Of a stretch of 64,000 nucleotides of DNA, positions 21,383 to 61,379 are shown piece by piece; the stretch's first letter is position 1, and every line of letters starts with the position of its first letter. The stretch is from Cantharellus purpuraceus. Taxonomy: Eukaryota; Basidiomycota; Agaricomycetes; Cantharellales; Hydnaceae. The notes under the pieces were generated by a model. The model saw only the letters and a list, made by a program, of their open reading frames with translations. It ran no database searches and was not told the DNA's origin. The stretch lies in NCBI GenBank assembly GCA_025174535.1, contig JALBUN010000018.1, forward strand, positions 248,001 through 312,000. The letters run 5' to 3'. A program made the position numbers and the translations under genes.

Positions 21383-21449
21383 GTATATTCAAACTGCCAT
21401 ACTCACTCCTACCAATGCCATGATCCACCACCAATTCTGAATGCACATG

Positions 21450-25810: not shown

Positions 25811-25811
25811 C

Positions 25812-33061: not shown

Positions 33062-33069
33062 ATCACCAG

Positions 33070-33933
33070 ATATGAAGACACTACCTCAAAGGCCCCTCTG
33101 ATCCGGTGGATGTCATAACAGACCACAAGAACTTGGAATACTTCTCCACAACAAAACTACTCACCCAGAGACAAGTCTGATGGTCTAAATACCTGTCTCA
33201 GTTCAACCTCATTATCCATTTCCATCCTGGTCAACTCAGCCTGACACATTAACTAGACACTGGGATGTCTACCCTAAAGAGGGGAGTAGTGACTATGCCA
33301 CTGTAAACCCACACAACTTTCATCCTGTGTTTACTAACAAGCAGCTGGCATCATCCCTATGGGCATCCACCCTCATGACTCCCACCCTCTGAGCTGTCAC
33401 CATTATGGACATTGACCAACTCCACTCCGACATCCACTCATCACTCCAATCCGATCCTGTTGCAGTTAAACACTTGGATGACCCTTCCGATCCAAAGTGG
33501 TCACTTGACCCCAAAGGACACCTCCAACACAATGACTGGATATACGTTCCAGACACCAATGGTCTCCGACTCCAAGTTTTGCAGTATTATCATGATCACC
33601 TGATCTCTGGCCATTTTGGGCAAAACTGCACACAAGGGTTAATCCAATGAGACTACGTATGGCCAAAAATGCGAGAATATATTCAACACTACTGTAACTC
33701 TTGTACCACATGTATGTGCTCAAAATCGCAAAAGCACAAACCCTACAGAACACTTAAGGTCCTGGAGCAACCATGGAACTCCATCTCCATGGATTTCATA
33801 GAGAAGCTTCCCCCATTGCTTGGATATGACACCATACTTGTGATTGTCAACAGGTTCACTAAACAGTCACTATTCATTCTGACGCATGACACCATCACCT
33901 CTGCCTCACTAGCTAAGTTGTTCATTCTCCATG
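33070..33933 (+). pseudogene. G1 RNase H end and integrase N-terminal half
   Basis: It resumes at the U1 duplication (CCAGATATGAAGACAC) with the RNase H end, then the integrase zinc region (YYHDHLISGHFGQNC; CNSCTTCMCSKSQKHKPY), then SMDFIEKLPPLLGYDTIL with the first catalytic D. It is cut at 33938 by a 1433-bp solo LTR. Stops include TGA at about 33649. Confidence 0.88.
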
Positions 33934-33938
33934 TATTC

Positions 33939-35371
33939 TGTTTTGGAACCCGCAAAATTATGGTGTTAGGGCAAACTCTAAATCACCACAATTCCATGAA
34001 TGAACAGCTGAGAAGAATATCAAACCCTGCTGCAGCACAACTCCAGAAACAATTTAACGTTTGTACTTTGGTTACAATCCTTTGTATTGGTCAATGCAGA
34101 CTATACGCAGAAAGGTAATACGTTTCTTAGCAGCAAGAAATGAATAAGACTTCCAGAGTCTAGAGTTCACGGATGCTTAGGGGTCCAGATATTCCAAAAA
34201 AGAGGGGAATGCACTTAGAGGCTAAAGGAAGTAGGTGGATGAATCCAACCGTCCAACCAGTGGCACTCAGAAGCGGGTAACAGCGATGTGTGAAGTAGTC
34301 TAGCAACTGCTTCACATGAGTTCAAGCTTCTAATGCTCTGCAAAGGCAGTACACACTAGTTACTTAAACAAGAGCACTAATGGCAGGACTATTGACAGAC
34401 AATCTCACCCTGTAGATTTGTAGTCACGTGAGGCAGATACTACACTCACGCCCAAAGCAGGAATATCACTACTTCAAGTGCAATCAAGTACAGTTACACA
34501 ACTGTAAAAGATCCTTGAACTGGTAATCAACAGTTACTGAGATAGAGGATGACACTGTATGTCACTCTAGTCACACTGGTGTGCAGAAGATGGGTAGAAT
34601 ATGATGATATGTTATTCTTTCAGAGGCAGAATGGCCTCCTTATATATTGTATTTACAGGGGCTGACTAATGCTTCTGGAATATTCTACCTATTAATAGAT
34701 GGAAACTACTGGAAGGTTGTGGAAGGTGGAAGAAAGGGGTAGAATATTCCAAGCCAATCACAGGATCTGATCACAGCACTAACACTGATCAGGAGCTGAA
34801 TAATGGTTCTGGAAAGTTCTATCTAATAATAGAGGGAAACAGCTAGAATGTTATGGAAAGGGGTAGAATATTCCAAGGCAATCACCTGATTTGATCACCC
34901 ATCAGCTGATCTGATCCCTGAGCTAGGCACTGATCAGGCAAAAAGAAGGGTGTCCACCCTGTTTTCTGCACTGGTTTGGACAGCCATGGATAGCCACATG
35001 TCAGGTGATGATCTCCACGGAAAATAGTGCCCTGAGAGGCTGTGGTTGTTAAGTTAGAGAATATTTATTGATCAGAGACATCTGAGCTTGAATTCAGGCC
35101 AAATGCCTGGTCCAAAAGGGGAGAGCCGGCTGTGCGAAGGTTTGTGGGCACCTATGGGTCCACAACTGTAGCACAGCAGAAATAAATGATTCTGAGCTGA
35201 GTTCTGCATGGAATATTCCCGGAAAAATATGGAAAAATAGAGAATATTTGAATAAGTCCATTCCAGGTACAAGCATCAAATATATGCTGATATTTAGGAA
35301 TGGAAAAGCAAAGAATAGCACATTGGTGCTGCATAAATGGAATTTGATAGGGAAAAGGTGGTTCCCATACA
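33939..35371 (+). mobile_element. Solo LTR, family L1433 (copy a), in G1 integrase
   Basis: It runs TGTTTTGGAACCC to TTCCCATACA, 1433 bp, flanked by TATTC (33934-33938, 35372-35376). Joining the flanks restores LFILHVFSKHGVPLH of the integrase. No internal gene is recognised. A tandem duplication of about 130 bp (GGAATATTCTACC / GGAAAGTTCTATC repeats) lies near 34670-34890. It has a TATATATTG box near 34642. Confidence 0.92.
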
Positions 35372-35376
35372 TATTC

Positions 35377-35957
35377 TCTAAACACGGAGTCCCATTGCAT
35401 GTCACATCCGATTGGGGCTCAGAGTTCCTCTCTGCCTTCTTCCACAGATTAGGAAAGGCTCTTGACATGAAGCTTCATTTCACCTCCAGATACCATCCCG
35501 AAGGAGACGGACAAACAGAACAAATGAATCAGCCCCTGGAACAATATCTCTGAGTCTATTGCAACTATCAACAAGACAACTGGGCTGATCTACTTCCGAT
35601 CACAGAGTTTGCCTACAACAACACTGCAAATGCAACCACTGGCATCTCTCCATTCTTTGCTAATAAAGGCTACCCTCTGAACATCTCCATCCACCCCAAG
35701 AAGGAACTTGCCTCCACCAAAGCCCACCAATTTGTAACTGACCTCAATCAACTACACCAACATCTCCAAAAAAACCATCTCCAATGCCCAGAAACAATAC
35801 CAAGTCTCTGTGGACCAATGCTGCATTCCGGCTCCAGACCCGCAAATCAGAGACAAAGTATTCATCAAGGCTGAACACTTCCAGACCACCCATCCATTGA
35901 AGAAACTCTCCAAGAAATACTTAGGTCCTTATGAGGTCATTGCTCATGCTGGCAGCA
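35377..35957 (+). pseudogene. G1 integrase, C-terminal part
   Basis: It continues SKHGVPLHVTSDWGSEF (second D), PEGDGQTEQMNQ (catalytic E), VYCNYQQDNWADLLP, and ends at YEVIAHAGS near 35957, where the LTR of G2 begins. A TGA lies at about 35551 and a frameshift near 35770. Confidence 0.88.
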
Positions 35958-36836: not shown

Positions 36837-39800
36837 ACAGACCCAAAAAAATAGTAAGCAGTCCTATAGCCTCTATATGGGCTGAGGGCTGCATTGGTAC
36901 TCCCCATATGACAAACGAGGTCCGCCTGAACGCATCCACTCTTTCCCACTCTGACTCCCTTACCCTCCTCGTCTACTCAATCTCCATTTCCGATACCGCT
37001 ATTCAAGCATTAATTGACTCTGGTTCTACTCACTGTTTCCTTGAGTCCTCTTTTTCCAATTTACATAAACTCCATACATACACCATAACTCCAATATTGC
37101 TCTGATTATTTGATGGCACTACTAATGCTGTTATTTCACATGTCTATCCATTTTTCTGTCAGAGAAATCCAGAACCTTACATTCTATGTTACTCCACTTG
37201 ACTCCAGCTGTTCTGTGGTTCTTGGACATAACTGGCTCACCCACTACAATCCATTGATTGACTGGGCATTGGGCCATATCACATTCCGTTCTCCCGTACA
37301 GGCTGTGTCATCCCTGATGTCACCAGCAACTTTAGGTGCAAAACTATCTTCCACCTCTGCTGACTCCGCTCCAATAGATACTCCATCTACCCCACCATTT
37401 ATATCACTGGTGGATGCTATGGTCTTTGCCAGACTAAGCAAACTGGATGGCTCTCACACATTCCAGGTCTACCTCTCCAATCCGATACTCCTCACCACCC
37501 ATTCTGCCCGATCAACTCCACCGGACCTATCTATGGTTCCTAAGGAGTATCATGAGTTCACTGACGTGTTCAGCAAGTCTAAAGCCAACTCCCTAGCAGA
37601 ACACCGACCATACGATCTCAAGATTGAGTTGGATGACAACCCCACCCCTCCACTTGGCCCTATCTACTCACTATCCCAAAAAGAGCTACTGGCTCTCCAA
37701 ACATTCATAGACGAGAACTTGGCCACAGGCTTCATCTGCCCATCCCTATCTCCCCATGGAGCTCCAGTCCTATTTGTCTGCAAGAAGGATGGATTACTCC
37801 ATCTATGTGTCAACTTCCGTGGACTCAACAAGATCACCAAGAAAGACCAATACCCAATACCCCACACCACGGACCTACTCAAAAGTCCTCAAAAGGCTAA
37901 GATCTATTCCAAAATAGATCTCCAACATGCCTACCATCTAGTCTGCATCCGAGAAGGTGACGAATGGAAAATGAGTTTCCACACACAATATGGCTCTTTT
38001 GAGTGGTGCATCATGCCCTTCGGACTAACCAATGCTCCAGCCACCTTCCAGAGGTTCATGAATGATACCTTCACCAACCTCCTTGATGTGACTGTCCTCA
38101 TTTACTTAGACGACATTTTGGTATATTTGGACAATGAAGAAGAACATTGGACACATGTCTGAGAGGTACTCTGACGTCTCCGAAAACATGGCCTCTTTGC
38201 CTGCGCTGACAAATGCGAATTCCACTCCGACTCAGTTGAATCCCTAGGCTATATCCTCTTCCCAGCAGGATTGACAATGTCCGATGACAAAATCAAAGCC
38301 ATACAGGAATGGCCAGAACCCCGGAAAGTCAAGGACATACAGTCCTTCCTAGGGTTTGCCAACTTCTACCACCGCTTCATTCATGGCTACTCCGATATCA
38401 CCATTCCGCTCACCCGACTCACTAGGAAGGGTATCCAATGGAATTTCACTGATGAATGTAGACAGAGCTTTGAGACCTTGAAAAAGGCCTTTACTTCTGC
38501 TTCGATACTGACTCATTGGGTTCCAGACGTTCCTATCCTATTAGAGACTGATGCCTCCAACTATGCACTTGCCGCGATCCTGTCCATCATCTCTCTGGAC
38601 GACGGACAAGTCCATCCAATCGCTTTTCACTTGTGTACATTTACACCCCCCAAACTGAACTATGACGTCCACAACAAAGAGCTCCTTGCCATATATGAAG
38701 CCTTCCAGATATGGAGACACTACCTTGAAGGCCCCTCTGATCCGGTGGACGTTATAACTGACCACAAGAACTTGGAATACTTCTCCACAACAAAACTGCT
38801 CACCTGGAGACAAGTCTGATGGTCTGAATATCTCAGTTCAATCTCATTATCCGTTTCCGCCCAGGTCGACTTGGAGCAAAGCCCAACGCTTTAACTAGAT
38901 GCTGGGACATCTACCCTAAAGAGGGGAATAGTGACTATGCCACTGTAAACCCACACAACTTTCGTCCTGTGTTTACTAATGAGCAGCTGGCATCGTCCCT
39001 ACAAGCATCCACCCTCATGACTCCCACCCTCTGAGCTGTCACCATTATGGACATCGACCAACTCTGCTCTGACATCCGCTCATCACTCCAATCTGATCCT
39101 GTTGCAGTTAAACACTTGGACAACCCTTCTGATCCAAAATGGTCACTTGACCCTGAAGGACACCTCCAACACAACAACAGGATATACATCCCTGACACCA
39201 ACGGTCTCTGACTCTGAGTTTTGCAGTATTACCATGATCACCCGATCTCGGGCCACTTCAGGCAAAATTGCACACAAGGATTAATCCAATGGGACTATGT
39301 ATGGCCTCAAATGCAAGAATACATTCAACACTACTGTAACTCCTGCACCATGTGTATGCGCTCAAAATTGCAAAGGCACAAACCCTATGGAACGCTTAAG
39401 CAACTTCCAGTCCTGGAGCAACCATGGAACTCCATCTCCATGGATTTCATAGAGAAGCTCCCCCCATCGCTTGGATTTGACACCATACTCATGATTGTCG
39501 ACAGGTTCACTAAACAGTCACTATTCATTCCAACGCATGACACCATCACCTCTGCCTCACTAGCTAAATTGTTCATTCTCCACGTATTCTCTAAACATGG
39601 AGTCCCATTGCATGTCACATCTGATCGGGGCTTGGAGTTCATGTCCTCCTTCTTCTGCGCACTAGGAAAGGCTCTTGACATGAAACTTCACTTCACCTCC
39701 AGATACCATCCTGAAGGAGATGGACAAATGGAACAAATGAATCAGTCCCTGGAACAATATCTCTGAGTCTATTGTAACTATCAACAAGACAACTGGGCTG

Positions 39801-40224
39801 ATCTACTTCTGATAGCAGAGTTTGCCTACAACAATGCTCTGAACGCAACTACTGGCATCTCTCCGATCTTTGCTAATAAAGGCTATCATCCAAACATCTC
39901 TGTTCACCCTGAGAAAAAACTTGCCTCCACCAAAGCCCACCAATTTGTAACTGACCTCGATCAACTACACCAACATCTCCGAGAAACCATCTCTGATGCC
40001 CAGAAACAATATCAAGTCTCCACAGACCGATGCTGCATTCCGGCTCTGGACCTGCAAATCGGAGACAAAGTATTCATTAAGGCTGAACACTTCTGGACCA
40101 CCTGCCCATCAAAGAAACTCTCCAAGAAATACTTAGGTCCTTATGAGGTCATTGCTCGCACAGGCAGCAGGTCCTTCACCCTCCGCCTCCTGGACCACTT
40201 TCAAGCAGTTCATCTGGTCTTCCA

Positions 40225-41616
40225 TGTCAAGAATTTATTCAAGTACTACTATGACCTATTGGAGTAAGAAGGGGGAGTTTTATGATAAGGAAAAGTTGTG
40301 AAAAGTTTGGGGATTTTTGATTAAGGGATGAGGAGGAGGTGATTTTCAATTTTATTTTGTGAGCCATCCTTTCGTCCTATGGGGGTGGCTACTACTCAAA
40401 AAGGGAGGTATTATGATGGTTTTCATTCATCATAAACCTCAAATCAAATGGGTAAAAAACTCCTTTCTCTATAAAAAGTTTTTCCCTATGACATCACATA
40501 TTATCAGTATCCACATCATTTCTTTTATCATATGTTTCAATCTTACTAAAAGGCTTTTTTATCATGTGATTTCCAAATTGTATATTAGCTACAACTGTGT
40601 ACAAGTATCTATCATCGGATTCACTATTCTCAATCCCTTCCAAGCTGCAAACAAACAGCTTGTGTTATTTTTCTGTCGTTCCTGGAATAACTCCTAAATG
40701 ACCTATTCGATTTGAAATATTTTGCATATCCTATTAGGATATTGCATCATCTATTACTATCTCAAATTACTAACGATTTGGATTATTACATCCATTTCTA
40801 TTAAGCAAACACTTTTTTGAAGTGTTGCTATTCCCATTTCTGCTCAAATATTTTTCAGAAGTCCCAGTTCTTAACCAAATATTCTGATATTTGGTAACAT
40901 CACTCTACTAAACAACACCTCTCTATTGACCCCGCATATATTTGCATCCTTGCAGTAATTGCTCCTCTATTCAAAATTTATTGCGCCACCATCTCACACC
41001 TTCATCTTACACTCACACACAACACCCCTCCACATCTTTTCCTAAGATGCTTGTTCGGAATCATGTCAGTATACAATATTCTGATGTATAGGAGATATAC
41101 ATCAGGATTTCAATGATACATAAAGCCAGGGAGTTACAATTTGGATATCTTAAAAGATTTCAGATGTGTGAAATTTTCATAAATATAAACATATATTCTA
41201 TATTTTAATAAACTTTAAAAGATAAGATATTTGGTTGAGATGAACATAATTATTTACATGGATATAATAGGAATGTATATATGAATATAATTGGTATTAT
41301 ATAGGGTATTTAGATATACAAATACCAGGTGGGGATTGAAGATAGTTCAAATTATGTTACAAGTATTGTATAAGAAAGAATCAAATGATATTTGGATGTT
41401 CCTTCAAGAGAGTTGCCACCACTAAATGGGGAAAAAACAATTATTTTTGAGAATTATGCCAAAATATCAAAATATGTTTTAATCTAGTATATTGTGTAAA
41501 ATTTGAGAATCATGTTGAAATATGAAAATAAGTTTGAATTGAAGTGTATTGTATAAAATTTGAGGAAAATAGGTTGTACATACGTATTTGTTGTATTTCT
41601 GAACAAGCGTCTAACA
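40225..41616 (+). mobile_element. Solo T-family LTR in G2 integrase (contains a TIR element)
   Basis: It runs TGTCAAGAATT to CTAACA and is flanked by TTCCA (40220-40224, 41617-41621). Its length is 1392 bp. Subtracting the 566-bp TIR element and its 3-bp duplication leaves 823 bp, exactly the LTR length of intact element T. Confidence 0.95.
41046..41611. mobile_element. 566-bp MITE-like TIR element, TSD TAA
   Basis: The ends are GATGCTTGTTC and, reverse-complemented, GACGCTTGTTC, flanked by TAA (41043-41045, 41612-41614). The interior is AT-rich and has no ORF. The TWA-type 3-bp duplication fits PIF/Harbinger-derived MITEs; the superfamily is an inference. Confidence 0.85.
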
Positions 41617-42068
41617 TTCCATATATCAATGCTTGAACCCACTACTATGAACAAGATCTCTGGTCGCACACAACCTCCACCTCCCCTGATCATCATTGAA
41701 GGAGATAATGAATATGAGATATCTGAGATCCTGGACTTGAAGATCGACTGTCGACACAAGTGCAAGCTCCAGTACTTAGTCAAATGGACTGGATACAAAG
41801 GCACCAACGAAGAGTCTTCATGGATCTCTGCATCTGAACTCAATCATGCATCCAAATCCGTCTCTGACTTTCACTCCGCTTATCCTGACAAACCTGGCCC
41901 CCTTATGAATCTTTAAGTTTGATTACTAATGCTAATTCTATTATTTCGCATCATCATTTTATTACAAGTCACAAGGGAAATTACCAGCCTGCCCAAAAAA
42001 CTCCAAAGGAATATCACTCTGACTCATTTTTCTCTGCTCTGAAATTTATAATCATTTATTTTTTATTT

Positions 42069-45000
42069 TTATACATCGTGTTTCCTTTTTCCCTTCCCCT
42101 TATCTACCCCAGGCTCCGTCTCCGACTCATCATCACTCTCTACATCCAACACCCAATCTTTCTCATCCCCCATGTCTGAATCCTCATCCAAAGGGGCCAT
42201 GAACTTCCACAACCAACGTAACTTGGCTGTCCGCTGACCCTCCAGAACCTCCTTCCATTTCATCGTCTTCACCAAGTCCACTAGCAACCCCTCCATAGGC
42301 CGGAGGTGCTCTGACTGCAGGTTAACCAGCCAGATAAGCTGGCCCATGGTACTATTGGGTGCAGAGACACGCCCCATACCTGCACCAGTCATTGCCCCTT
42401 CTGATCTGACACCGCTACCCCCGGCTGCCACAGCACCTGTCTCCATCCACCACTTTTTGGTTGGACAACCTTCCGATTCTTTCTCTGCCCCTCCTTGTAC
42501 CACTAGTTGGGGCTTGACGCTCCAACTCCAGGGATCAAACTTTCCATTGATCCTACACCCTCCTTTCTGACCCCAACAATGATTGTAGGACCAAAGGAAG
42601 TGAGTTGGGCCAGTAGGCCACATGCACTCCATGCCCACATCACAACACAAGTCGCAAGTTCCACCAGGCCCACCAAATGGCTCTGTTGGAGCCAGAGCCT
42701 TGGGTGGTCTGCCCCTTCTTGATGTGGCCTCCAAGTGTTCCCTCTCCTCCTCCTTGTCCTGCTGTTCTGCCACCACCTTCTCCATCTCGCGCTTGCAAAG
42801 CTGGATCGCTGACCTCACGACACGCAGCTCCTTCTTACGGGTCACCAACACATGACTCTCCGCCTTGCACCATATGACCCTCTGATCTGCCTCCTGCTTC
42901 TCCATATCAGCACTTGGGTACGCCTTCAATGAAAAGACCACGACGTCGAGATTCTTCTTAGTGGTAGTGGCATAGAGCTCCACTCTTTTGTGAGCCTCGA
43001 CTGTGGCTACCCAAGCCATCTCCTCGTAGCAATTTGAAGTTGGATCCAGCTCCGCATCCGTTGACGAGCCAGGACGCATCGAGGACGCATATCGAACCAC
43101 TCTGACAGTCCAACTCCGCCAGCGTCTTTTCGTATCAACTTTTAAATAGCGCCACAACTCCCTATCCGCCTCAGTCTCTAATTCGAGCCATCGATCGTCA
43201 CTCGTGTTTCATCACCATCGATCATTATCAGCCTTCTATTCACACCGATCCTTTCATCATCATTCACATGGCTTCCAATTCTATTCCCCTCTCCAACATC
43301 TCTTCTAATAATACATCACACTGGTCTCTGGACACAGAGGACTATCAAAAATACGCCGAGCTCCACGGGCATGTTAAGCCACCTCCACGTGTCAAAATAC
43401 TTCCAAAACTCTTTCAACGTCCAAGATCCCCACCATGCCCCACCATGTCTCTCTTATGCCATTGGCAATCCCATATTCTTTCACAATTCCATTGAACCAT
43501 ATACATTCCTCGACATTTCACCTCTATATCGTAACACGGATAGAAGAGTCGAACGTGAGGTAGAATTTCAGTCGCCATCGCTGACCTATCCTCCCACTTC
43601 AATCCGACTCAGGTTACATCGTGTCAGGCAAAGGGACCGAATACTCTTGGAACGGGATACCATATGGAGACGGATCACTAAGACAATAAGGAGTATTTGT
43701 TGTGGATGCTGACGGAAGTCCTCATGTGACTCAGGGTCAATTAACCTTCGGAGCCGTAGGGAAGATGGTATTGGTGGACGTTTCTATTGTTCTTTTATAT
43801 GACTCACCCCTGTTTCATCTTTTAATTCATTCATACACGACTTACTCATCCTTGTTCTATTTTTGGTTCTTTTATTACTCATCACCCCCTATTCTTACAA
43901 AGATTACCCCTATCTGTCGTTTCATTTCTCCATGATTACCCCCTTTAGTAGTTCAACTTCACACGCTTCGTCAGCTGGCTTGATCAGCATTTCTTGCATC
44001 ATATCGCATCATTTGCTCCTCATATTGTGTTGTTGTGCCCTGGGGATTTGTATATAAAAGGGTGCTAGTTTTCGCCTTTGGAATCAATCAACAAGTTTTC
44101 AGCCAACGCTCTAAAGTCAAAGTCCACGCTCTAAGTCTACGCTCTACGCTCTACATCACAATCCATCATCTCTACACCGAGGTAAACACCTTGGTTCAAC
44201 GATCAGATTTCCCTCCGCCACCGAGAGGTTGATTCTCCTGAAACCAGCTTTCGCGTACCTCCCAACCGGGCTCCGCATTGTCATCCAGTCACAGAGCACG
44301 ATCAGCCATCGGGACCGACCTTTTGCTCCCATCCTCATCCAACCACAGAGCACTATCCCACTTCCCTGTTACGTACCCCTCGCCCTGATTGATCTTTGGA
44401 GTGCTGAACAACTGCGTTACACACCGTCTGCTTGCTAGGACCGTTGCGCGCAGGCTTATAGGATCTATTCCTTAAGCAAACCGACACCGTCCCGACATCC
44501 ACACCCCCCTCAGGCTCCGCATTTGTGTCAAGCTCCATATTGGCATTGGGATCCACCTCCACCTCCGCCCTCTCCACCTCCACCACTTCATCTTCCTCAG
44601 CCGCACCCAACCCAAATAATGGCCATGCCCATGGATTTAATGGCGAGTCCTCCACAGTGACAGTTTTTGGATGAGTTGGTTTGCTTAAGGAATAGATCCT
44701 ATAAGCCTGCGTGCAACGGTCCTAGCAAACAGACGGTGTGTAATGCAGTTGTTCAGCACTCCAAAGATCAATCAGGTCGAGGGGTAGAGGTAGCACTTAG
44801 TAACAGGGAAGTGGAATAGTGCTCTGTGGTTGGATGAGGATGGGAGCAAAAGGTCAGTCCCGATAGCTGATCGTGCTCTGTGACTGGATGACAATGCAGA
44901 GCCCGGTTGGAAGGTACACGAAAGCTGGTTTCAGGAGAAGCAACCTCTCAGTGGTGGAGGGAAATCTGATCATTGAACCAAGGTGTTTTACCTCAGTGTA

Positions 45001-46675
45001 GAGATGATGGTGTAGAGCGTAGAGTGTAGACTTAGAGCGTGGACTTTGACTTGAGAGCGTTGGCTGAAAACTTGTTGATTGATTCCAAAGGCCAAAAACT
45101 AGCGCCCTTTTATATACAAATCCCCAGGGCACAACGACACAATATGAGGAGCAAATGATGCGATATGATGCAAGATATGCTGATCAAGCCAGCTGATGAA
45201 GCATGTGAAGTTGAACTACTAATGGGGAAATCATGGAGAAATGAAGCAACAGATAGGGGTAATCTTTGTAAGAATAGGAGGTGATGAGTAATAAAAGAAC
45301 CAAAAATAGAACAAGGATGAGTAAGTCGTGTATGAATGAATTAAAAGATGAAACAGGGGTGAGTCATATAAAAGAACAATAGAAATGTCCACTAATACCA
45401 TCTTCCCTACAGCTCTGAAGGTAAATTGACCCTGAGTCACATGAGGACTTCAGTCAGCATCCACAACAAATACTCCTTATTGTCTTAGTGATCTGTCTCC
45501 ATATGGTATCCTGTTCCAAGGGTATTCAGTCCTTTTTCCTGACACGATGTAACCTGAGTTGGATTGAAGTGGGAGGATAGGTCAGTGATGACGACTGAAA
45601 TTCTACCTCACGTTCAACTCTTCTATCCGTGTTATAATATAGAGGTGAAATGCCGAGGAATGTATATGGTTCAACGGAATTGTGAAAGAATATAGGATTG
45701 CCAATGGCATAAGAGAGACATGGTGGGGCATGGTGGGGATCTTGGACGTTGAAAGAGTTTTGGAAGTATTTTGACACGTGGAGGTGGCTTAACATGCCTG
45801 TGGAGCTCAGCGTATTTTTGATAGTCCTCTGTGTCCAGAGACCAGTGTGATGTATTATTAGAAGAGATGTTGGAGAGGGGAATAGAATTGGAAGCCATGT
45901 GAATGATGATGAAAGGATCGGTGTGAATAGAAGGCTGATAATGATCGATGGTGATGAAACACAAGTGACGATTGATGGCTAGAATTAGAGACTGAGGTGG
46001 AGAGGGAGTTGCGGCGCTATTTACAAGTTGATATGAAAGGATGCTGGCGGAGTTGGACTGTCAGAGTGGTTCGATATACGTCCTCGATGCGTCCTGGCTC
46101 TTCACCATCCATGTAATGGAGATGATGGCGACTTCAGGGGTCCCTGTTGGTATAGGCACACTTGGGCTTCCTGGACTGGTCGCCCCTGCCCCGGTCACCT
46201 CCTCCTCTACCTCCATGGCAGCTTCTAGCTCGTGTGCCTGCTCCTCCACTTCCTTCAGTCTCACAGCCTCCATCGTGGCTGCAAGTTCCTTGACCCTGCA
46301 GGCTCTCTCAGCCTTCACTTCCTCCTCTTTCCTTCTCCATTCTGTCTTCGCCGCCTCTTTCCGCCTCTGCTCTTCCTCCTCCTTCCATCTCTGTTCCACC
46401 TCCTCCTCCTCCTTGCGTCTCTGTTCTGCCTCCTCCTCCTCCTTGCATCTCCGTTCCGCCTCCTCCTCCTTCCGCCTCCATTCCACCTCCTCCTCCTCCT
46501 TGCATCTCCATTCCACCTCCTCCTCCTCCTTCCGTCTCCGTTCTGCTTCCTCCTCCTCTTTCCATTTCTGCTCCTCTTCCTCTTCCTTTTGTTGGGCCAA
46601 GAGCAACTGCTCAAGCTCAGCCATGCTCATGCTTGCCAAAGGGTTTGACATCATTGAGGATAAGACCTCAATCAT
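42069..46675 (-). CDS. Antisense Zn(II)2Cys6-like coiled-coil gene of G2, split by U2 and U3
   Basis: Pieces in reading order are 46675-46105, 44670-44491 and 43057-42069, joined at U inserts; about 580 codons without an internal stop in these pieces. The N-terminus (MIEVLSSMMSNPLASMSMAEL) precedes an E/R/K/W-rich repeat array (EEEEAERRRK units, coiled coil). Next are ELAATMEAVRLKEVEEQ, an acidic linker (DPNANMELD), EARKRAELYAATTKKN-like helices, then CDLCCDVGMEC and HCWGQKGGC. G1's version reads CX2CX6C-X12-CX2CX6C, the C6 zinc-cluster spacing; here one Cys is lost. The tail reads MGQLIWLVNLQSEHLRPMEGLL and ends DKGKGKRKHDV. Localisation is presumed nuclear by domain type only. Confidence 0.65.
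43062..44486 (+). mobile_element. Solo LTR U2 (1425 bp, plus)
   Basis: It runs TGACGAGCCAGG to CAAACCGACA, flanked by CCGT (43058-43061, 44487-44490). A TATA box TATATAAAAGG lies at about 44050. An ORF starting MASNSIPLSNIS is at 43268-43495. It interrupts the antisense ORF of G2. Confidence 0.85.
43268..43712 (+). CDS. ORF inside LTR U2, unrecognised
   Basis: MASNSIPLSNISSNNTSHWS continues to DYQKYAELHGHVKPPPRVK (43268-43495). An overlapping frame (to 43712) continues with YRNTDRRVEREVEFQSPS and TSIRLRLHRVRQRDR. The start is preserved in all three U copies (about 25601, 43268 and 45896). A frame change between the two parts, or an intron, would be needed to join them. No family is recognised. 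Confidence 0.35.
44674..46104 (-). mobile_element. Solo LTR U3 (about 1431 bp, minus)
   Basis: It is the inverted counterpart of U2, separated from it by 187 bp. It ends CTCTTCA at 46104. The other end reads AGTTGGTTTGC where TGTTGG is expected, and no matching duplication is visible (GATG and CCAT). The left boundary is therefore approximate. Confidence 0.75.
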
Positions 46676-46680
46676 GCCCC

Positions 46681-46692
46681 ACCTTTTATATG
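46681..46692 (-). promoter_or_regulatory. Antisense TATA-like box of the G2 antisense ORF
   Basis: The minus strand reads CATATAAAAGGT, just upstream of the ATG at 46675. The same box is at 52171-52181 in G1. Its closeness to the first ATG makes a downstream methionine (residue 8, 9 or 16) a likelier start. Confidence 0.5.
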
Positions 46693-46792
46693 TCTCCAGA
46701 CCCCCAGTATAACTCCAACTGCACCCAACTGTCTCACCTATTCAATCCACGGACATGAGGCCTCAGGGGCTCAGCCTTAAATGGAGGGATAC

Positions 46793-47248
46793 TGTTATGA
46801 CTATATTCATAAATGACCACCGCCATGTCTCCATCTACCTGTCCGATTGTCACCGCCAATTCTGCCCATCCGTCTCCAGTTCTGATTGATGCATCAGCAT
46901 CACCATAGGAACCTGGACATCCATCCTCATCAGACTCAGACATACTCATGTAAGGCCATTGGCCTTGGAGACCCATCACCGGAGTAACTATTATTAGATT
47001 TCAAAATATGTATTTAATTGGCCCGACTGGGGACTTCATTCCCCAGTTTGAATATTGAATCATGCCTAGTTCCTAAGTCCGATCCTAACTCTCTAAGTCA
47101 TACTCCATCTCCGAAATCTCAGACACCGGTATTAGTGAGGGCGCAGCACATAAGCTGAAGCCAAGTCCATTCCGACCCCACGACATACTCCAAACCGACC
47201 AAACCTCTGACCCAATCTCCAACTCCCAATTGGACCTAGTGCATAACA
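46793..47248 (+). repeat. 3' LTR of G2 (456 bp)
   Basis: It runs TGTTATGACTATATTC to TAGTGCATAACA. It lacks about 70 bp found in the 529-bp copies, soon after the start. The purine tract AAATGGAGGGATAC precedes it. Confidence 0.9.
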
Positions 47249-48878
47249 CTTTTTCCCTTCCCCTTGTCTACCTCAGGCTCCATCTCCAATGCCATTTCCG
47301 ACTCATCATCACTCTCTACATCTGACACCCAATCTTTCTCATCCCCCATGTCCAAATCCTTGTCCAAGGGGGCCATAAACTTCTGCAGTTGACACAACTC
47401 TGCAGTCCACTGACCCTCCAGAACCTCCTTCCATTTCATAGTCTTCACTAACTCCACTAATAACCCCTCCATCCGCCGGAGGTGCTCCAACTGAAGGTTA
47501 ACCAGCCAGATAAGCTGGCCCACAGTACTGTTGGCCTAGAAACATGCCCTGTACCCATGCCGGTTGTTGCTCCTTCCGATCTGACACTGCTACCCCCAGC
47601 TGCCACTGCACCCATCTCCATCCGCTGCTTTTTGGTTGGACAACCTTCTGATTCTTTCTCTGCCCCTCCTTGTACCACTAGTCGGGGCTTGACACTCTGA
47701 CTCCAGGGATCGAACTTGCCATCGATTCTACACCCTCCTTTCCAACCCCAACAACAATTGCAGGACTGAAGGTGGCAAGTTGGGCTGGTGGGCCACACAC
47801 ACTCCACACCTGCGTCATGACACAAGCCACAAATTATGCCAGGCCCACCGAATGGCTCCATCAGAGCCAGAGCCTTGGGTGGTCTGCTCCTTCTTGATGC
47901 AGCCTCCAAGTGCTCCCTCTCCTCCTCCTTGTCCTGCTGTTCTGCTGCCACCTTCTCCATCTCACACTTGCAGAGCTGGATTGCTGACCTAGCAACACAC
48001 AGCTCCTTTTTACAAGTCACCAATACGCAATTCTCTGCTTTGCACCATATGACCCTCTGATCCACCTCCTGCTTCTCCATATCAGCACTCAGGTGCACCT
48101 TCAATGAAAAGACCATGACCTCAAGGTTTTTCTTGGTGGTAGCAGCATAGAGCTCTGCCCTTTTGCGAGCTTCAACTGCAGCTACCCAAGCCATCTCCTC
48201 ATAACAATTTGAGGTCAGATCTGACTCCATATCCGTCCCAACATCCACACCCACTTTGGGCTCTGCATTTGCATCGAGCTCCATGTTGGCATTGGGATCC
48301 GCCTCCACTTCCACCCTCTCTGCCTCCACCGCATCATCTTCTTCAGCCACACCCACCTCAAATAACGGCCATGGTCACAGACATAACAGTGAGTCCACCA
48401 GAGGGACAGTTGTCAGATGGGTCAACTCCATCTGTGTGATTGAGATAATGGTGACCTCAGGGGTTCCTGCCCATATTGGCACACTTGGACTCCCCAAGTG
48501 ACTAATCGCCCCTGCCCCGGTCACCTCCTCCTCTACCTCCATGGTGGCTCCTAGCTCATGTGCCTGCTCTTCCACTTCCTTCAGCCTTGCGGCCTCCATC
48601 ATGGCCGCAAGCTCCCTGACCCTGCAGGCTTGCTTGGTTTTTGCTTCCTCCTCCTTCCATCTCCATTCCACCTCTGCCTCCTCTTTCCATCTCCACTCCT
48701 CACCCTCCTCCTTCTGTCTCTGTTCTGCCTCCTCCTCCTCCTTCCATCTCCGTTCCACCTCCTCCTCCTCCTCCTTCCATCTCCGTTCTGCCTCCTCCTC
48801 CTCCTTCCATCTCCATTCTGCCTCCTCCTCCTCCTTCCATCTCCATTCCACCACTTCCTCCTCCTTCCATCTCCATTG

Positions 48879-49700
48879 TGTCAAGAATTTATTCAAGTAC
48901 TATTACAACCTATTGGAGTAAGAAGGGGGAGTTTTATGATAAGGAAAAGTTGTGAAAAGTTTGGGGATTTTTTGATTAAGGGATGAGGAGGAGGTGATTT
49001 TCAATTTTATTTTGTGAGCCATCCTTTCGTTCTGTGGGAGTGGCTACTACTCAAAAGGGAGGTATTATGATGATTTTCATTCATCATAAACCTCAAGTCA
49101 AACGGGTAAAAACTCCTTTCTCTATAAAAGGTTTTTCCCCATGACATCACATATTATCAGTATCCGCATCATTTCTTTTATCATATGTTTCAATCTTACT
49201 AAAAGGCATTCCTATTATGTGATTGCCAAATTGTATATTAGCTACAACTGTGTACGAGTATCTATCATCGGATTCACTATTCTTAATCCCTTCCAAGCTG
49301 CAAACAAACAGCTTGTGTCAACTTTCTGTCACTCCTGGAATAACTCCTAAATGACCTATTCAATTTAAAATCTTTTGCATATCCCATTAGGATATTGCAT
49401 CATCTATTACTATCTCAAATTATGAACGATTTGGATTATTACATCCATTTCTATTAAGCAAACACTTTTTTGAAGTGTTGCTATTCCCATTTCTGCTCAA
49501 ATATTTTTCAGAAGTCCCAGTTCTTAACCAAATATTCTGATATTTGGTAACATCACTCTACTAAACAACACCTCTCTATTGACCCTGCATATATCTGCAT
49601 CCTTGCAGTAATTGCTCCTCTATTCAAAATTTATTGCGCCACCATCTCACACCTTCATCTTACACTCACACACAACACCCCTCCACATCTTTTCTTAACA
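48879..49700 (+). mobile_element. Solo T-family LTR in the G1 antisense ORF
   Basis: It runs TGTCAAGAATT to TTCTTAACA, 822 bp. Flanks are CATTG (48874-48878) and CATTC (49701-49705), a 4/5 match. It keeps the TATAAAAGG box near 49122. Confidence 0.9.
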
Positions 49701-49769
49701 CATTCCACCTCCTCCTCCTCCTTCCGTCTCCATTCTGCCTCCTCCTCCTCCTTCCATCTCTGTTCTGCC

Positions 49770-52032
49770 TGTTTTGGAACCCGCAAAATTATGGTGTTAG
49801 GGCAAACTCTAAATCACCACAATTCCATGAATGAACAGCTGAGAAGAATATCAAACCCTGCTGCAGCACAACTCCAGAAACAATTTAACGTTTGTACTTT
49901 GGTTACGATCCTTTGTATTGGTCAATGCAGACTATACGCAGAAAAGTAATACATTTCTTAGCAGCAAGAAATGAATAAGACTTCCAGAGTCTAGAGTTCA
50001 CAGATGCTTAGGGGTCCAGATATTCCAAAAAGAGGGGAATGCACTTAGAGGCTAAAGGAAGTAGGTGGATGAATCCAACCGTCCAACCAGTGGCACTCAG
50101 AAGCGGGTAACAGCGATGTGTGAAGTAGTCTAGCGACGGCTTCACATGAGTTCAAGCTTCTAATGCTCTGGAAAGGCAGTACACACTAGTTACTTAAACA
50201 AGAGCACTAATGGCAGGACTATTGACAGACAATCTCACCCTGTAGATTTGTAGTCACGTGAGGCAGATACTACACTCACGCCCAAAGCAGGAATATCACT
50301 ACTTCAAGTGCAATCAAGTACAGTTACACAACTGTAAAAGATCCTTGAACTGGTAATCAACAGTTACTGAGATAGAGGATGACACTGTATGTCACTCTAG
50401 TCACACTGGTGTGCAGAAGATGGGTAGAAGTGGTAGAATATGTTAAGATAAGATATGGAGGGGTGTTGTGGGTGAGTGTAGAATGAAAGTGAGGGATGGT
50501 GGCGAAGTAGATTTTTGAATAGGGAAGCAATTACTGCAAAGATGCAGATATATGCGGGATCGATGGAAAGGTGTTGTTTAGTAGAGTAATGTTACCAAAT
50601 ATCAGAATATTTGGTTAAGAACTGGGACTTCTGAAAAATGTTTGAGCAGAAATGGGAATAGCAACACTTCAAAAAAGTGTTTGCTTAATAGAAATGGATG
50701 TAATGATCCAAATCGTTCGTAATTTGAGATAGAAATAGTTGATGCAATATCCTAATGGGATATGCAAAATATTTCAAATTGAATAGGTCGTTTAGGAGTT
50801 ATTCCAGGAATGACAGAAAGTTGACACAAGCTGTTTGTTTGCAGCTTGGAAGGGATTAAGAATAGTGAATCTCCTTATTGATACTCGTACACAGTTGTAG
50901 TTAATATACAATTTGACAATCACATGATAAAAAAGCCTTTTAGTAAGATTGAAACATATGATAAAAGAAATGATGTGGATACTGATAATATGTGATGTCA
51001 TGGGGAAAAACTTTTTATAGAGAAAGGAATTTTTACCCGTTTGACTTGAGGTTTATGACGAATGAAAATCATCATAATACCTCCCTTTTTGAGTAGTAGC
51101 CACCCCCGTAGAACGAAAGGATGGCTCACAAAATAAAATCGAAAAAACACCTCCTCCTCATCCCTTAATCAAAAAATTCCCAAACTTTTCACAACTTTTC
51201 CTTATCATAAAACTCCCCCTTCTTGCTCCAATAGATTGTAATATTACTTGAATAAATTCTTGACAGAATATGTTGCTATTTCAGAGGCAGAATGACCTCC
51301 TTATATATTGTATTTACAGGAGCTGACTAATGGTTCTGGAATATTCTACCTATTAATAGATGGAAACTACTGGAAGGTTGTGGAAGGTGGAAGAAAGGGG
51401 TAGAATATTCCAAGCCAATCACAGGTTCTGATCACTGGACTAACACTGATCAGGAGCTGAATAATGGTTCTGGAAAGTTCTATCTAATAATAGAGGGAAA
51501 CAGCTAGAATGTTATGGAAAGGGGTAGAATATTCCAAGGCAATCACCTGATTTGATCACCCATCAGCTGATCTGATCCCTGAGCTAGGCACTGATCAGGC
51601 AAAAAGAAGGGTGTCCACCCTGTTTTCTGCACTGGTTTGGACAGCCATGGATAGCCACATCTCAGGTAATGATCTCCACAGAACATAGTGCCCTGAGAGG
51701 CTGTGGTTGTTAAGTTAGAGAATATTTATTGATCAGAGACATCTGAGCTTGAATTCTGGCTGAATGCCTGGTCCAAAAGGGGAGAGCTGGCTGTGTGAAG
51801 GTTTGTGGGCACCTATGGGTCCACAACTGTAGCACAGCAGAAATAAATCATTCTGGGCCGAGTTCTGCATGGAATATTCCCGAAAAAATATGAAAAATTA
51901 GAGAATATTTGAATAAGTCCATTCCAGGTACAAGCACCAAATATATGCTGATATTTAGGAATGGAAAAGCAAAGAATAGCACATTGGTGCTGCATAAATG
52001 GAATTTGATAGGGAAAAGGTGGTTCCCATACA
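49770..52032 (+). mobile_element. Solo LTR, family L1433 (copy b), with a nested T LTR
   Basis: It runs TGTTTTGGAACCC to TTCCCATACA, flanked by CTGCC (49765-49769, 52033-52037). Removing the inner T LTR and its duplication (830 bp) leaves 1433 bp, the exact size of copy a. Confidence 0.95.
50441..51265 (-). mobile_element. Solo T-family LTR (minus) inside L1433 copy b
   Basis: The plus strand runs TGTTAAGATAAG to AAATTCTTGACA, 825 bp, flanked by GAATA (50436-50440, 51266-51270). Confidence 0.95.
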
Positions 52033-52281
52033 CTGCCTCCTCCTCCTCCTTCCATCTCCGCTCCTCTTCTTCTTCCTTCTGTCAGGCCAAGAGCAACTGC
52101 TCCAGCTCAGCCACACTCATGTTTGCCAAAGGGTTTGACATCGTTGAGGATAAGACCTCAATCATGCCCCCCTTTTATATGTCTCCAGACCCCCAGTATA
52201 ACTCCGACTGCACCCAACCATCTCACCTATTCAATCCATGGACATGAGGCCTCAGGGGCTTGGCCTTAAATAAAGAGATAC

Positions 52282-52810
52282 TGTTATGACTATATTCATT
52301 AATGCCCAGATCCCCGTCCAATCCACTCAGATCCCCATGCATATGAAATCTATACTCCATTTGGAATCCATCATGTCTCCATTTATCTGTCTGATTGTCA
52401 CCACCAAATCTTGCACATCCATCTCCAGTTCCAATTGATGCATCAGCATCACCATAGGAACCTGGACATCCATCCCCATCTGACTCAGACATACTCATGT
52501 AAGGCCATCGGCCTCGGAGACCCATCACCAGAGTAATTATTATTAGATTTCAAATATGTATTTAAGTTGCCTGACTGGGGACTTCATTCCCCAGTTTGAA
52601 TATTGAATCATGCCTAGCTCCTAAGTCTGATCCTAACTATCTAAGTCATACTCCATCTCCAAAATCTCAGACACTGGTATTAGTGAGGGCGCAGCACATA
52701 AGCTGAAGCCAAGTCCATTCCAACCCCCACGATGCACCCTGATTCCTGCTCCAACTCTGACTCAACCTCCAACCCAATCTCCAACCCCCAATTGGACCTA
52801 GTGTGTAACA
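52282..52810 (+). repeat. 3' LTR of G1 (529 bp)
   Basis: It runs TGTTATGACTATATTC to TAGTGTGTAACA and has the same length as the 5' LTR at 20854. The purine-rich AAATAAAGAGATAC precedes it. Confidence 0.92.
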
Positions 52811-56089: not shown

Positions 56090-56912
56090 TGTCAAGAATT
56101 TATTCAAGGAATATTACAATCTATTGGAGCAAGAAGGGGGAGTTTTATGATAAGAAAAAGTTGTGAAAAGTTTGGGAATTTTTTGATTAAGGGATGAGGA
56201 GAAGGTGTTTTTCGATTTTATTTTGTGAGCCATCCTTTCGTTCTACGGGGGTGGTTACTACTAAAAAAGGGAGGTATTATGATGATTTTCATTCGTCATA
56301 AACCTCAAGTCAAACGGGTAAAAACTCCTTTCTCTGTAAAAAGTTTTTCCCCATGACATCACATATTATCAGTATCCACATCATTTCTTTTATCATATGT
56401 TTCAATCTTACTAAAAGGCTTTTTTATCATGTGATTGTCAAATTGTATATTAACTACAACTGTGTACGAGTATCAATAAGGAGATTCACTATTCTTAATC
56501 CCTTCCAAGCTGCAAACAAACAGCTTGTGTCAACTTTCTGTCGTTCCTGGAATAACTCCTAAACGACCTATTCGATTGGAAATCTTTTGCATATCCCATT
56601 AGGATATTGCATCAACTATTGCTATCTCAAATTACGAACGATTTGGATCATTACATCCATTTCTATTAAGCAAACACTTTTTCGAAGTGTTGCTATTCCC
56701 ATTTCTGCTCAAATATTTCGCAGAAGTCCCAGTTCTTAACCAAATATTCTGATATTTGGTAACATTACTCTACTAAACAATATCTTTCCATCGACCCCGC
56801 ATATATCTGCATCCTTGCAGTAATTGCTCCCCTATTCAAAATCTACCTCGCCACCATCCCTCACCATCATTTTACACTCACCCATAACACCCCTCCATAT
56901 CTTTTCATAACA
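56090..56912 (+). repeat. 5' LTR of T
   Basis: It runs TGTCAAGAATT to TTCATAACA. The TATA position reads CTCTGTAAAAAG, whereas older solo copies have CTCTATAAAA. Four predicted stem-loops lie at 56540-56567, 56589-56610, 56673-56691 and 56739-56760. Confidence 0.96.
56540..56760 (+). other. Cluster of four stem-loops in the R/U5 part of the T LTR
   Basis: Arms: GTCGTT/AACGAC around GGAATAACTCC; GCATATCC/GGATATTGC; AACACTT/AAGTGTT; ACCAAATAT/ATATTTGGT. L740 has hairpins at comparable places with different arm sequences (TTCATT/AATGAA; GCATACTC/GAGTATTGC; ACTC/GAGT; GAAGATA/TATATCTTC). Confidence 0.65.
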
Positions 56913-56940
56913 CGATTAAGAGTCTCAAACTCTTCGATTG
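56913..56940 (+). other. Region downstream of the T 5' LTR: hairpin, no canonical PBS
   Basis: The sequence after the LTR is not the copia GGTTATGGGCCC nor a TGG-type PBS. It contains AAGAGT-CTCAA-ACTCTT (56918-56934), a 6-bp stem. On the complementary strand it can be drawn as a 5-bp stem with a 7-nt loop like an anticodon arm. Confidence 0.5.
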
Positions 56941-56950
56941 AAACGTCATA

Positions 56951-59900
56951 ATGGCTCAGCCACAAAAGCATGATGTTCATAAATTTAGGGAAATCAGGCC
57001 AAAGCTGAGTAGAGACAATTGGGTCCCATGGAAGAGAGAATTACTTGCTACAGCTCGTGACAGGGGACTTTATGCGACTATTCTGGGGACAGACGAGTTA
57101 CCAACAGTGAAACAAGTCACTCTTACAAATATCGAAGGTGTTCAACTCATTGGAGAAACCCCTCTCCCACAAGCTGTCAGCGAATGGCATGATCGGAATA
57201 ATGCCGCGTATAATCAACTTTTATTAACTGTCTCTTCCGAATATCAAAGCGCTATTGATACTACGGATCAAGCTTCGATAGCGTGGTCGATACTTACAAA
57301 CAAATTCGAGTCTAAAGATCCAAGCAAAATCAGCATTGTCCGGATGAGATATGAGAATTATCATATGGTTGAAGGCCAGTCTGTCAGTTCCTATCTGACA
57401 ACGATGAGAGAATATAGGAATCAGCTCGATAGAATGGGAGAAAAGATTCCAGACTCAACTCACGCCGCTACAATCTTGCGAAACGTACCTGAGTCTTGGA
57501 GATCGATCGCTCAAACGATTCAGATGATACACACAGACGTTAATCAAATTGAGCAGAAATTGGAGGCTCACGAAGCTAATATCAGTGCTCTTGAGTTCTC
57601 TACCCAATCTTCTACAGCCTTTTCTGCTAAAGCTTCACCACAAAATCGAAATAGCGTCCCTACACTTTATCCCTCCCAAATTCATCGAGACATCACTTCC
57701 TCGACAACTAATCCATCATCTATTACTGGTCCTTTTTTCTCTCGCCAGGCGAATTCCTACTCTAATCTCTGCTGTACGAATTGTGGGAGGCGTGGACATA
57801 CGATTATCAAATGTTATGCGCCAGGAGGCCATATGGAGGGCAAAGCGCCTTGGAGCAACCAGATTCAATCAAATAGCATGTCAAAAAATCCTTCCATTCC
57901 CCTCCCTCGCCAAAATCAGTCTACTATGACTCCTCAACTTATCACACCTAAAGCTCCAACTTCACCCGCAGCAAAATCTTCTGGACAAAAGAAGCCTAAT
58001 ATTGCGCTTATGGCGCATATATCTGGTGCCAATCCTCCAATCGTACCAAAGGTGGTCGTATCCACCAATACCTCTATGTTCTCATCAATGGAGAATGATC
58101 CTCACCTCTGGTTTATGGATTCAGCTGCATCCAGTCATATATGCGGGAGGAAGAACCTTTTCGACACAATGTATACGGTTCCCCCTCTCACCATTGAAAC
58201 CGCCAGTGGAGAGTCATTCACTGCGAATCAACGAGGGAATATCAACATCACAATCATATCTGATGATGTTGACGATGCATCATTCACTCTACTGGATGTT
58301 GTATACGTGCCGAAGCTTCAAGTAAATCTTTTATCGGTCGGACGAGTCACCAATGCCAATGTGAATGTATCATTCACAAAGACTCATTCGTTTTTATCTA
58401 TGGACAACACCATTATTGCACAGGGTTCAAAGATCAATAATCTATTCGCATTCAAAGCTTTCATAGATGAACCTCCTCAAATTGGTAATAATCAAGTTCA
58501 TTCATCTATTGAATCTACGGATGCCACCATTTGGCATCATCGACTCGTGCATACAAGCTATTCCACGATCGATAAAATGTTGAAGAATAATACGGCCATT
58601 GGTCTTCCTTCAAAAATAAATTTCGATGAGACAGTTCAGTGTCAAAGCTGTCCATACGGGAAGCAAATTCGCGCTCCATTCCAGAAGATAGAGGAGATCC
58701 CAAATGATATCGGACAGATTGTCGTCTCGGATCTCTGTGGCCCATTTGAGCTATCTATAGGAGGATACAGGTATTTTATTACCTGGATCGATTTGAAGAC
58801 AAGATACGCGAGCATCGAGTTCCTGAAGAACAAGGAATGCAAGACTGTTACAGATTCATTCAAAAAAATTTTATCATGGATTTCGAGGCAGAAGAATACA
58901 CAGGTGAAACGAATTCGAACAGATAATGGCGGTGAATATATTGGACATGAATTCGAGCAATTATGCGGTGAGCTCGGTATAATACACGAAACGACTTCAC
59001 CGTATACTCCAGAGCATAATGGGGTCGCCGAACGATATAATCGAACGCTTCAAGAGGGCGCATTAACCTTACTACACGACTCATCACTACCGTTTAAATT
59101 CTGGGTCTCGGCAGTCCATACTACAAACTTCGTCAAAAACCGCCTCCTGCACTCACGCATTCAAATGTCTCCATACGAAGCATTTTGGGATAGAAAACCC
59201 CGCATCGATTGGCTCAAGACTTATGGCGTAAAATGTTGGGTTCTTGTACCCAAACAGATCCGGAAGAAAGGAGATTTTAGGTCGATTGAAGGAATATTTG
59301 TTGGTTACTTCGACAATTCAAAGGCTTACAAAGTATGGATCCCACGCACGCGAACAATCATGAAATGCCGCGATGCAATTTTTGATGAGTCAAATCATGT
59401 TGAACGAGTAACTATCCATGCTACTGATGATGATGACCTCCCGAATCTCTGGGAAAAGGATATCATCACTCATATCACTCCAATCGACACACCATCCCCT
59501 GGAACTCGTTGGACAGATGATCGCGAGCTTCCATTTGCATCCGAATTCGAGGAGCCGGATAGAGGAATTGAAGTTGAAGAAGTGGAAAGAGAAGCTGAAA
59601 CAAAAGAAGCTGAAGAATCAGAAGAGTCGCAGGAAGAGCGCATATATGCACCCAAGGACTTTGAAAAAGGCGCCTGGCTCGATCCATCAAATGTCACATA
59701 TGGACGAGGTAAACGAGTCAAAGCATTGTATAAAGAGTTATCTGCCCTATCAGAGGGTACAATGACTCTTGAACAAACAGAACAAATCTTCGTAACTCTA
59801 ACTGATGATGAACCATCAAACTACCGTGAAGCTATGAATTCTTCAAATGCCGAAAAATGGAAACAAGCCTGCCAGGCCGAAATGAAGAATCTATCAAAAT

Positions 59901-61372: not shown

Positions 61373-61379
61373 GGGGGCG
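61371..61379 (+). other. Polypurine tract of T
   Basis: GAGGGGGCG overlaps the stop codon of the polyprotein (TGA at 61370-61372) and directly precedes the 3' LTR. It would prime plus-strand DNA synthesis. Confidence 0.8.

Follow-up and report, generated by a model that had tools for sequence, protein, structure and literature searches.

An antisense gene for a zinc-cluster-like protein between pol and the 3′ LTR of two Gypsy chromovirus families of Cantharellus purpuraceus

Genes that lie antisense to pol, between pol and the 3′ long terminal repeat (LTR), have been described in the retrotransposons of plants (PMC7264820, PMC11963269). In the part of PMC7264820 that deals with them, the function of antisense retrotransposon genes is stated as not known. 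A fungal example is the antisense gene brtn of the Boty-like Gypsy element of Botrytis cinerea (Zhao et al. 2011, as cited in PMC8365987, PMC4227169, PMC5987419 and PMC7264820). Antisense genes in fungal Gypsy elements are therefore not new in kind. The present analysis concerns a 64,000-nucleotide stretch of the Cantharellus purpuraceus genome ("the window", G000:C18:248001-312000), in which two Gypsy chromovirus families carry, at the same position, an antisense gene for a protein with six clustered cysteines. Family G lies on the plus strand of the window with its antisense gene on the minus strand, and family H lies on the minus strand with its antisense gene on the plus strand. The original prediction, made from the window alone, knew of no fungal Gypsy element for which an antisense zinc-cluster gene had been described. 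As regards the zinc cluster, none was found among the literature matches listed, which cover titles and the first lines of abstracts and leave most subscription papers outside their scope; as regards a fungal antisense gene, brtn precedes it. What is new here is the cysteine cluster and the antisense intron, the antisense gene as such being already known.

The complete layout is seen in a G copy outside the window (L039/L040, in G000:C6:514001-530000), where a 5′ LTR, gag, pol, a chromodomain, the antisense gene and a 3′ LTR follow one another. The two LTRs of this copy are 91.7% identical, its gag-pol is disrupted into several frames, and in its initial part its antisense frame departs from the other copies; the antisense gene of copy L033 is open over 564 residues, starting MSNPLAS. 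The G protein has about 560 residues. Between their LTRs the carriers show protease, reverse transcriptase, RNase H, integrase and chromodomain in the order of a Gypsy chromovirus (PF08284, PF00078, PF17919, PF00665, PF00385). The pol and antisense genes are convergent, with about 150 nt between their ends. In the whole genome (40.15 Mb in 50 contigs), the antisense protein of the window copy G2 has 109 matches (108 scored among 1498 first-look candidates); 55 of them are free of stops, and 40 of these 55 lie inside open frames of at least 500 residues. The 3′ end of pol gave at least 150 matches (804 candidates), and the best 30 were taken as loci. At all 30 of these best-scoring pol ends, the antisense gene is present on the opposite strand beyond the pol 3′ end. 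Conversely, 30/30 G gene loci have a convergent pol 3′ end, which in one case retains just 37 pol residues, and 25/30 have an LTR start within 1.5 kb on the far side of the gene. The best-scoring copies thus show the features of an aORF-3R, namely location between pol and 3′ LTR, opposite strand, and a protein conserved in most copies. With a homologue in H, the central claim of the original prediction, a cysteine-cluster gene antisense to pol between the chromodomain and 3′ LTR of two Gypsy families, is borne out. In direct comparison, the antisense proteins of G and H share 24-31% identity, and their gag and pol segments 56-73%.

The antisense frame behaves as a coding sequence. Over a 330-codon core of 30 G copies it contains 0.33 stops per copy and is stop-free in 21 copies, and the five other frames of the same copies contain 6 to 17 stops per copy and are stop-free in none. 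The commonest single-base differences among the G copies are CpG-type transitions, which in the antisense gene have a ratio of 0.81, near neutral, as expected of methylation decay after insertion. TGA accounts for many in-frame stops, which is expected under such DNA-methylation decay. The ratio of nonsynonymous to synonymous divergence (dN/dS) was calculated pairwise, with CpG-type transitions set aside and with transitions and transversions treated separately. For the G antisense gene it is 0.11 for transitions (bootstrap 0.06-0.16) and 0.13 for transversions (0.07-0.23), where the copy pairs are non-independent and their choice by protein score may somewhat depress dN. For pol at these loci the values are 0.22 (0.15-0.30) and 0.61 (0.40-0.91); the gap is thus clear for transversions, and the intervals for transitions just overlap; in the CpG class, pol is more constrained than the antisense gene (0.60 versus 0.81). 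The pol ends of the 30 best pol loci give 0.32 and 0.47, and exon 2 of the H gene (eight copies) gives 0.18 for transitions and 0.24 for transversions. The two other frames of the antisense strand have dN/dS values of 2.6 to 4.1. One reverse frame was considered as the true source of the selection, because its ratio is also low (0.17 for transitions, 0.40 for transversions). This low ratio arises because its wobble positions are shared with the antisense frame, and with 6.2 stops per copy it was rejected as the coding frame in favour of the antisense frame. It is almost certain that a conserved protein gene lies on the antisense strand. The frame is kept in other copies and dN/dS lies well below 1, as the original prediction would have it.

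The cysteine cluster of the window copy G1 (47730-47831, minus strand) reads CGLCHDAGVECVWPTSPTCHLQSCNCCWGWKGGC, that is CX2CX6C-X12-CX2CX6C, exactly the spacing first proposed. When all six frames of the entire 64-kb window are searched with a relaxed six-cysteine pattern, it is the sole match. The Zn(II)2Cys6 binuclear cluster is defined as CX2CX6CX5-12CX2CX6-8C, and this spacing is found in G, in H and in the metagenome relatives of the G protein. Five of the six cysteines are kept in 31/31 aligned G rows and the fourth in 30/31. The 11 related metagenome proteins, known here as protein sequences only, share 34-43% identity with the G protein, and the eight that cover the domain keep 47 of 48 cysteines with the G1 spacing, so the spacing persists well beyond the window. 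In a profile comparison, the domain of H aligns to that of the G-type proteins with a probability of 77.8% and 31% identity over 86 columns. A chance origin of the cluster was rejected in view of the single six-cysteine match in six frames of 64 kb and the persistence of the cysteines at 34-43% identity. A circular permutation, in which the first triplet would correspond to the second half of a Gal4 cluster, was also rejected. The triplets were scored against two host halves of each kind and then against three first and eight second halves; in the second scoring, 12/12 rows lie nearer to the first half of host domains, some by small margins. A scan of IMG/VR returned 575 pattern matches, none of them a relative, and the H-type protein had no match at E <= 0.01 among 7995 scored candidates of a large protein set. 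A charged N-terminal helix precedes the cluster; in the window (46287-46617 and 48616-48895), this helix consists of tandem units of about 30 bases, whose number seemingly varies among copies. A basic patch follows about 30 residues past the cluster (PTKKRR in L033, PAKRRR in the metagenome relative P0004), and the C-terminus is acidic in both G and H.

The H gene contains a canonical intron between the cysteine triplets. These stand in separate frames in the window copy, and removal of a 67-nt intron yields CX2CX6C / CX2CX6-Y. The H spacing first reported, CX2CX6C-X10-CX2CX6-Y, thus holds for the window copy once this intron is removed; its final tyrosine is unique to that copy, cysteine being present in 7/7 other H copies compared, and splicing gives the H cluster as CX2CX6C-X10-CX2CX6C. 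Of eight copies (seven and the window's), 6/8 retain the donor GTRAGT and the acceptor YAG, with a divergent intron body, and a branch-like CTGAT occurs in 5/6 copies that retain the intron signals. Scripted splicing of five H copies gave a phase-0 frame through both triplets in L071, L074 and L077 (introns of 73, 62 and 59 nt), and no continuous frame was obtained in L075 and L076. Exon 2 has 66 genome matches from 81 candidates at 38-81% identity, the window copy itself excluded. An intron on this strand can presumably outlast retrotransposition if the RNA copied is of the opposite strand, and this would accord with expression of the gene from an antisense transcript. The H intron makes sense on antisense RNA only.

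The antisense gene also appears to have its own promoter. In G, TATAAAA lies 38-39 nt ahead of the antisense start codon, between the gene and the 3′ LTR and outside the LTR. With the query copy left out, the upstream block was located at 25 of 29 loci, 24 of which have TATAAA, and it was not found before the start codon at the other 4. In the window copy of H, TATTAAAA stands 48 nt ahead of the ATG, as read by eye and unscored. A candidate target site was noted in the LTRs of the complete copy L039/L040, each of which contains TCCGA/TCGGA nine times (9 per 509 bp), where shuffles lead to expectations of 1.1 and 1.7. The motif was selected post hoc, after inspection of the LTRs; the chance is 0.045 and 0.033 that some 5-mer occurs nine times. 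Relative to the number of CpG sites, it is more frequent than in the internal region both in the 3′ LTR (Fisher p 0.0017) and in the 5′ LTR (p 0.025).

Such features suggest a DNA-binding regulator of its own element, perhaps with an anti-silencing role, a function to which roughly an even chance can be given. The antisense gene would be transcribed from the TATA promoter outside the LTR, independently of the sense LTR promoter, and the antisense mRNA of H would be spliced, its intron outlasting retrotransposition since the genomic RNA is the other strand. The protein may dimerise via its long helices, the basic patch after the cluster may promote nuclear entry, and the six cysteines would fold around zinc in a Gal4-like manner. 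The cluster would then bind DNA, with the element's own sequences as the most likely target, and the bound protein would tune element transcription, either as an activator or as an anti-silencing factor; activation would agree with the acidic C-terminus of the G and H proteins. A more specific version can be proposed tentatively: a dedicated, spliceable, Gal4-like antisense factor with its own promoter might recognise CCG/CGG sites within the LTRs of the family that encodes it, and thereby lift host silencing or drive sense transcription.

Several observations weigh against this reading. First, the proportions given above come from the best-scoring G copies and pol ends and may drop in poorer copies; a third G element of the window, in which truncated pol abuts an LTR at 35958, has lost the antisense gene along with the pol end. 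In the H copies L072 and L073 (2/8), a common deletion removes the first triplet and the intron donor. Exon 2 of these copies is still open over 207 and 204 codons, and they possibly form a derived sub-lineage with half a cluster. Second, the TCCGA/TCGGA motif is not enriched in the two H LTRs (2 and 3 occurrences), which together with its post hoc choice makes it equivocal and a lead only, and P0004 is without the acidic tail. Third, conservation of the cysteines within G is weaker than it appears, because their codons are immune to the dominant CpG decay, which cannot convert them to another residue; the conservation across families is therefore the better evidence. Finally, the membership of the cluster in the Gal4 class is uncertain. 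The Pfam Zn_clus profile (PF00172), which the original prediction named as a check, has no match at E up to 10 in any of the 16 proteins scanned; 13 of these are G-type, among them 10 that cover the cluster, and 3 are H-type, so that 13 cover the cluster. A scan at E up to 1 gave no match either. A profile comparison with eight host Zn_clus domains gave weak probabilities of 29.5% and 17.1%, with the six cysteines co-linear and without a negative-control profile. Two AlphaFold2 (AF2) models, with a mean pLDDT (predicted confidence) of 60.7, contain long confident helices, and block means of about 28-57 in and around the cluster leave the fold unresolved there; structure prediction thus answers for the helices and not for the cluster. 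Since the Pfam match is absent, sequence searches of the PDB gave no useful match, the host profile is weak and AF2 confidence is low, the domain is termed here Zn(II)2Cys6-like rather than a member of the family. The identity originally proposed survives in its spacing. The Pfam, PDB and AF2 results favour the possible, though doubtful, alternative that the six cysteines form another zinc fold, such as one that binds RNA or protein, which would be compatible with several of the proposed functions. Such a fold is opposed by the Zn(II)2Cys6 spacing, common to both families and the metagenome relatives, and by the co-linear, though weak, alignment of the cysteines to host Zn_clus domains.

As to function, a regulator of the element has to be weighed against a protein that serves the retrotransposition cycle, such as a nuclear import factor or an integration-targeting partner of the chromodomain integrase in the pre-integration complex. 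The gene beside each of 30 pol ends, the nuclear-type basic patch and the long helices, which could make protein contacts, are consistent with this role, and a similar function is proposed for plant antisense open reading frames in the passages of PMC7264820 that discuss them. Sense RNA would, however, be the easier source of such a protein, and a TATA box of its own, antisense and outside the LTR, suggests that the gene is expressed without dependence on gag-pol; a cycle role is rather unlikely. The antisense transcript itself might also be functional, forming double-stranded RNA with gag-pol RNA and controlling copy number via small RNAs, an option raised in the same plant review (PMC7264820) and in keeping with convergent genes whose ends lie so close together. 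Against it, selection acts on the protein frame (dN/dS of 0.11-0.13, where the remaining two frames on that strand have 2.6-4.1) and the cysteines are kept across families at 24-43% identity, so this role is very improbable, and the transcript as the only function is largely refuted by codon-level selection. Least credible of all is the capture of a host zinc-cluster gene that is passively carried along and brings the element no gain, to which the host-like intron and cysteine layout, the Zn_clus domains at at least 19 places of the host genome and the one window G copy without the gene might point, but which is contradicted by the gene's presence at all 30 sampled pol ends, in two families and in distant metagenome relatives, by a constraint at least equal to that on pol in the same loci, and by the absence of the dN/dS near 1 that it predicts.

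The coordinates of the features are collected in Table 1. The G2 cluster has the same layout as that of G1, but its fourth cysteine is replaced by tyrosine. The G2 antisense gene is interrupted by one repeat inserted twice in opposite orientations (43054-44486 and 44665-46098), and its region, including both insertions, extends to 46792, where an LTR follows. The longest pair of arms between the two repeat copies is 884 nt at 95% complementarity. The G1 antisense gene is broken by inserted DNA from about 48883 to about 52032, and frame breaks are present in the window copies of both the G1 and H genes. The starts of the G1 and G2 genes are better placed at 52141 and 46651, which lie 38 and 39 nt past the first base of TATAAAA. 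G1 has no gag-pol of its own and is a gene remnant flanked by the LTRs at 46827-47248 and 52282-52810, abutting G2. The third G element (20854-35957, with a 5′ LTR at 20854-21382) is split by H and other insertions. The window also contains a young Copia element (56090-62131, plus strand), whose LTRs (56090-56841 and 61380-62131) are identical at 752/752 positions and whose gag-pol frame is open over 1473 codons (56951-61372).

Table 1. Features of the H, G2 and G1 copies in the window and of the complete G copy L039/L040 (positions of the latter within G000:C6:514001-530000)
Feature	Position	Strand	Remark
H 3′ LTR	25810-26390	-	matches 32367-33061
H antisense exon 1, first cysteine triplet at its end	26535-26796	+	frameshifted in window copy
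H antisense intron, GTAAGT...CTGAT...TTTTTAG	26797-26863	+	67 nt; phase 0 in the copies spliced
H antisense exon 2, second triplet and acidic C-terminus	26864-27498	+	frameshifted; end set by alignment to L071
H chromodomain, end of pol	27560-27874	-	
H 5′ LTR	32367-33061	-	
G2 gag-pol remains, to end of pol	36845-41913	+	convergent with antisense gene; interrupted 40226-41616
G2 antisense gene, C-terminal part	42069-43053	-	includes cysteine cluster (42555-42656)
G2 antisense gene, middle fragment	44487-44664	-	flanked by two insertions
G2 antisense gene, N-terminal charged helical part	46099-46651	-	start codon 46651
G2 TATAAAAGG box	46682-46690	-	first base 39 nt upstream of antisense start codon
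LTR separating G2 and G1 antisense genes	46827-47248	+	
G1 antisense gene, C-terminal and middle part	47249-48899	-	all six cysteines (47730-47831); more than one frame
G1 antisense gene, N-terminal part past inserted DNA	52033-52141	-	start codon 52141
G1 TATAAAAGG box	52171-52179	-	first base 38 nt upstream of antisense start codon
LTR downstream of G1 in pol sense	52282-52810	+	
L039/L040 5′ LTR	1847-2362		
L039/L040 gag-pol	~2404 (gag start), 7170 (pol end)		
L039/L040 antisense open frame	7323-9113	opposite gag-pol	597 codons
L039/L040 3′ LTR	9239-9747		

Among the known systems, brtn of Boty is alike in its place, between pol and the 3′ LTR of a fungal Gypsy element with a chromodomain, and in being an extra gene that runs opposite to gag-pol. 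A zinc cluster and an intron go unmentioned for brtn in the passages that cite it. The antisense open reading frames of plants resemble the G and H genes in position, strand and presence in most copies (PMC11963269). In the account given there, Grande possesses a separate promoter and its product is nuclear, similar to the traits predicted for the G gene, and the TRP28 domain of Retand is predicted to bind DNA, as is proposed for the G/H protein (PMC11963269). The plant systems differ in their hosts and in having TRP28 where the G/H protein has a cysteine cluster; TRP28 (PF04195) is not among the 21 Pfam families that appear at E up to 10 for the antisense proteins. Gal4-type Zn(II)2Cys6 regulators (PF00172) share with the G and H proteins the cysteine spacing, a basic patch past the cluster, helices and an acidic tail. 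The G/H protein departs from them in lacking a Pfam match, in the long helices that stand N-terminal to the cluster, and in two triplets that are both nearer to the host first half. With at least 108 scored places in one genome, a constraint at least equal to that on pol at the same loci, a cysteine cluster, a conserved TATA box and, in H, an antisense intron, this fungal system makes the role of antisense retrotransposon proteins directly testable.

Two further comparisons concern regulators encoded by other elements: HBZ of human T-cell leukemia virus type 1 (HTLV-1) is a bZIP protein, and VANDALs are DNA transposons of Arabidopsis. HBZ, as named in PMC11963269, is likewise an antisense-encoded nuclear regulator of a retroelement on the 3′ LTR side. 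The HTLV antisense promoter lies inside the 3′ LTR (PMC7264820), whereas the G gene has its TATA box outside the LTR and a cysteine cluster in place of bZIP, a domain that did not appear in the Pfam scans of the antisense proteins. The VANC anti-silencing proteins of VANDAL transposons are encoded by the element, sequence-specific and active on their own family (PMC5735166, PMC10398659). The likeness to VANC, as portrayed in these sources, lies in the CpG-type decay of the G copies, which suggests host methylation, and in the fast divergence of the antisense gene between families; the difference lies in the class of transposon and in anti-silencing, which is known for VANC and proposed for the G/H protein. 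If the tentative recognition of LTR sites by a Gal4-like factor were true, the antisense protein would play in a retrotransposon the part that HBZ/Tax or VANC play in their own elements, and it would co-evolve with the sites it targets; such co-evolution would lead to strong constraint within a family and rapid divergence between families (24-31% identity versus 56-73% in gag-pol).

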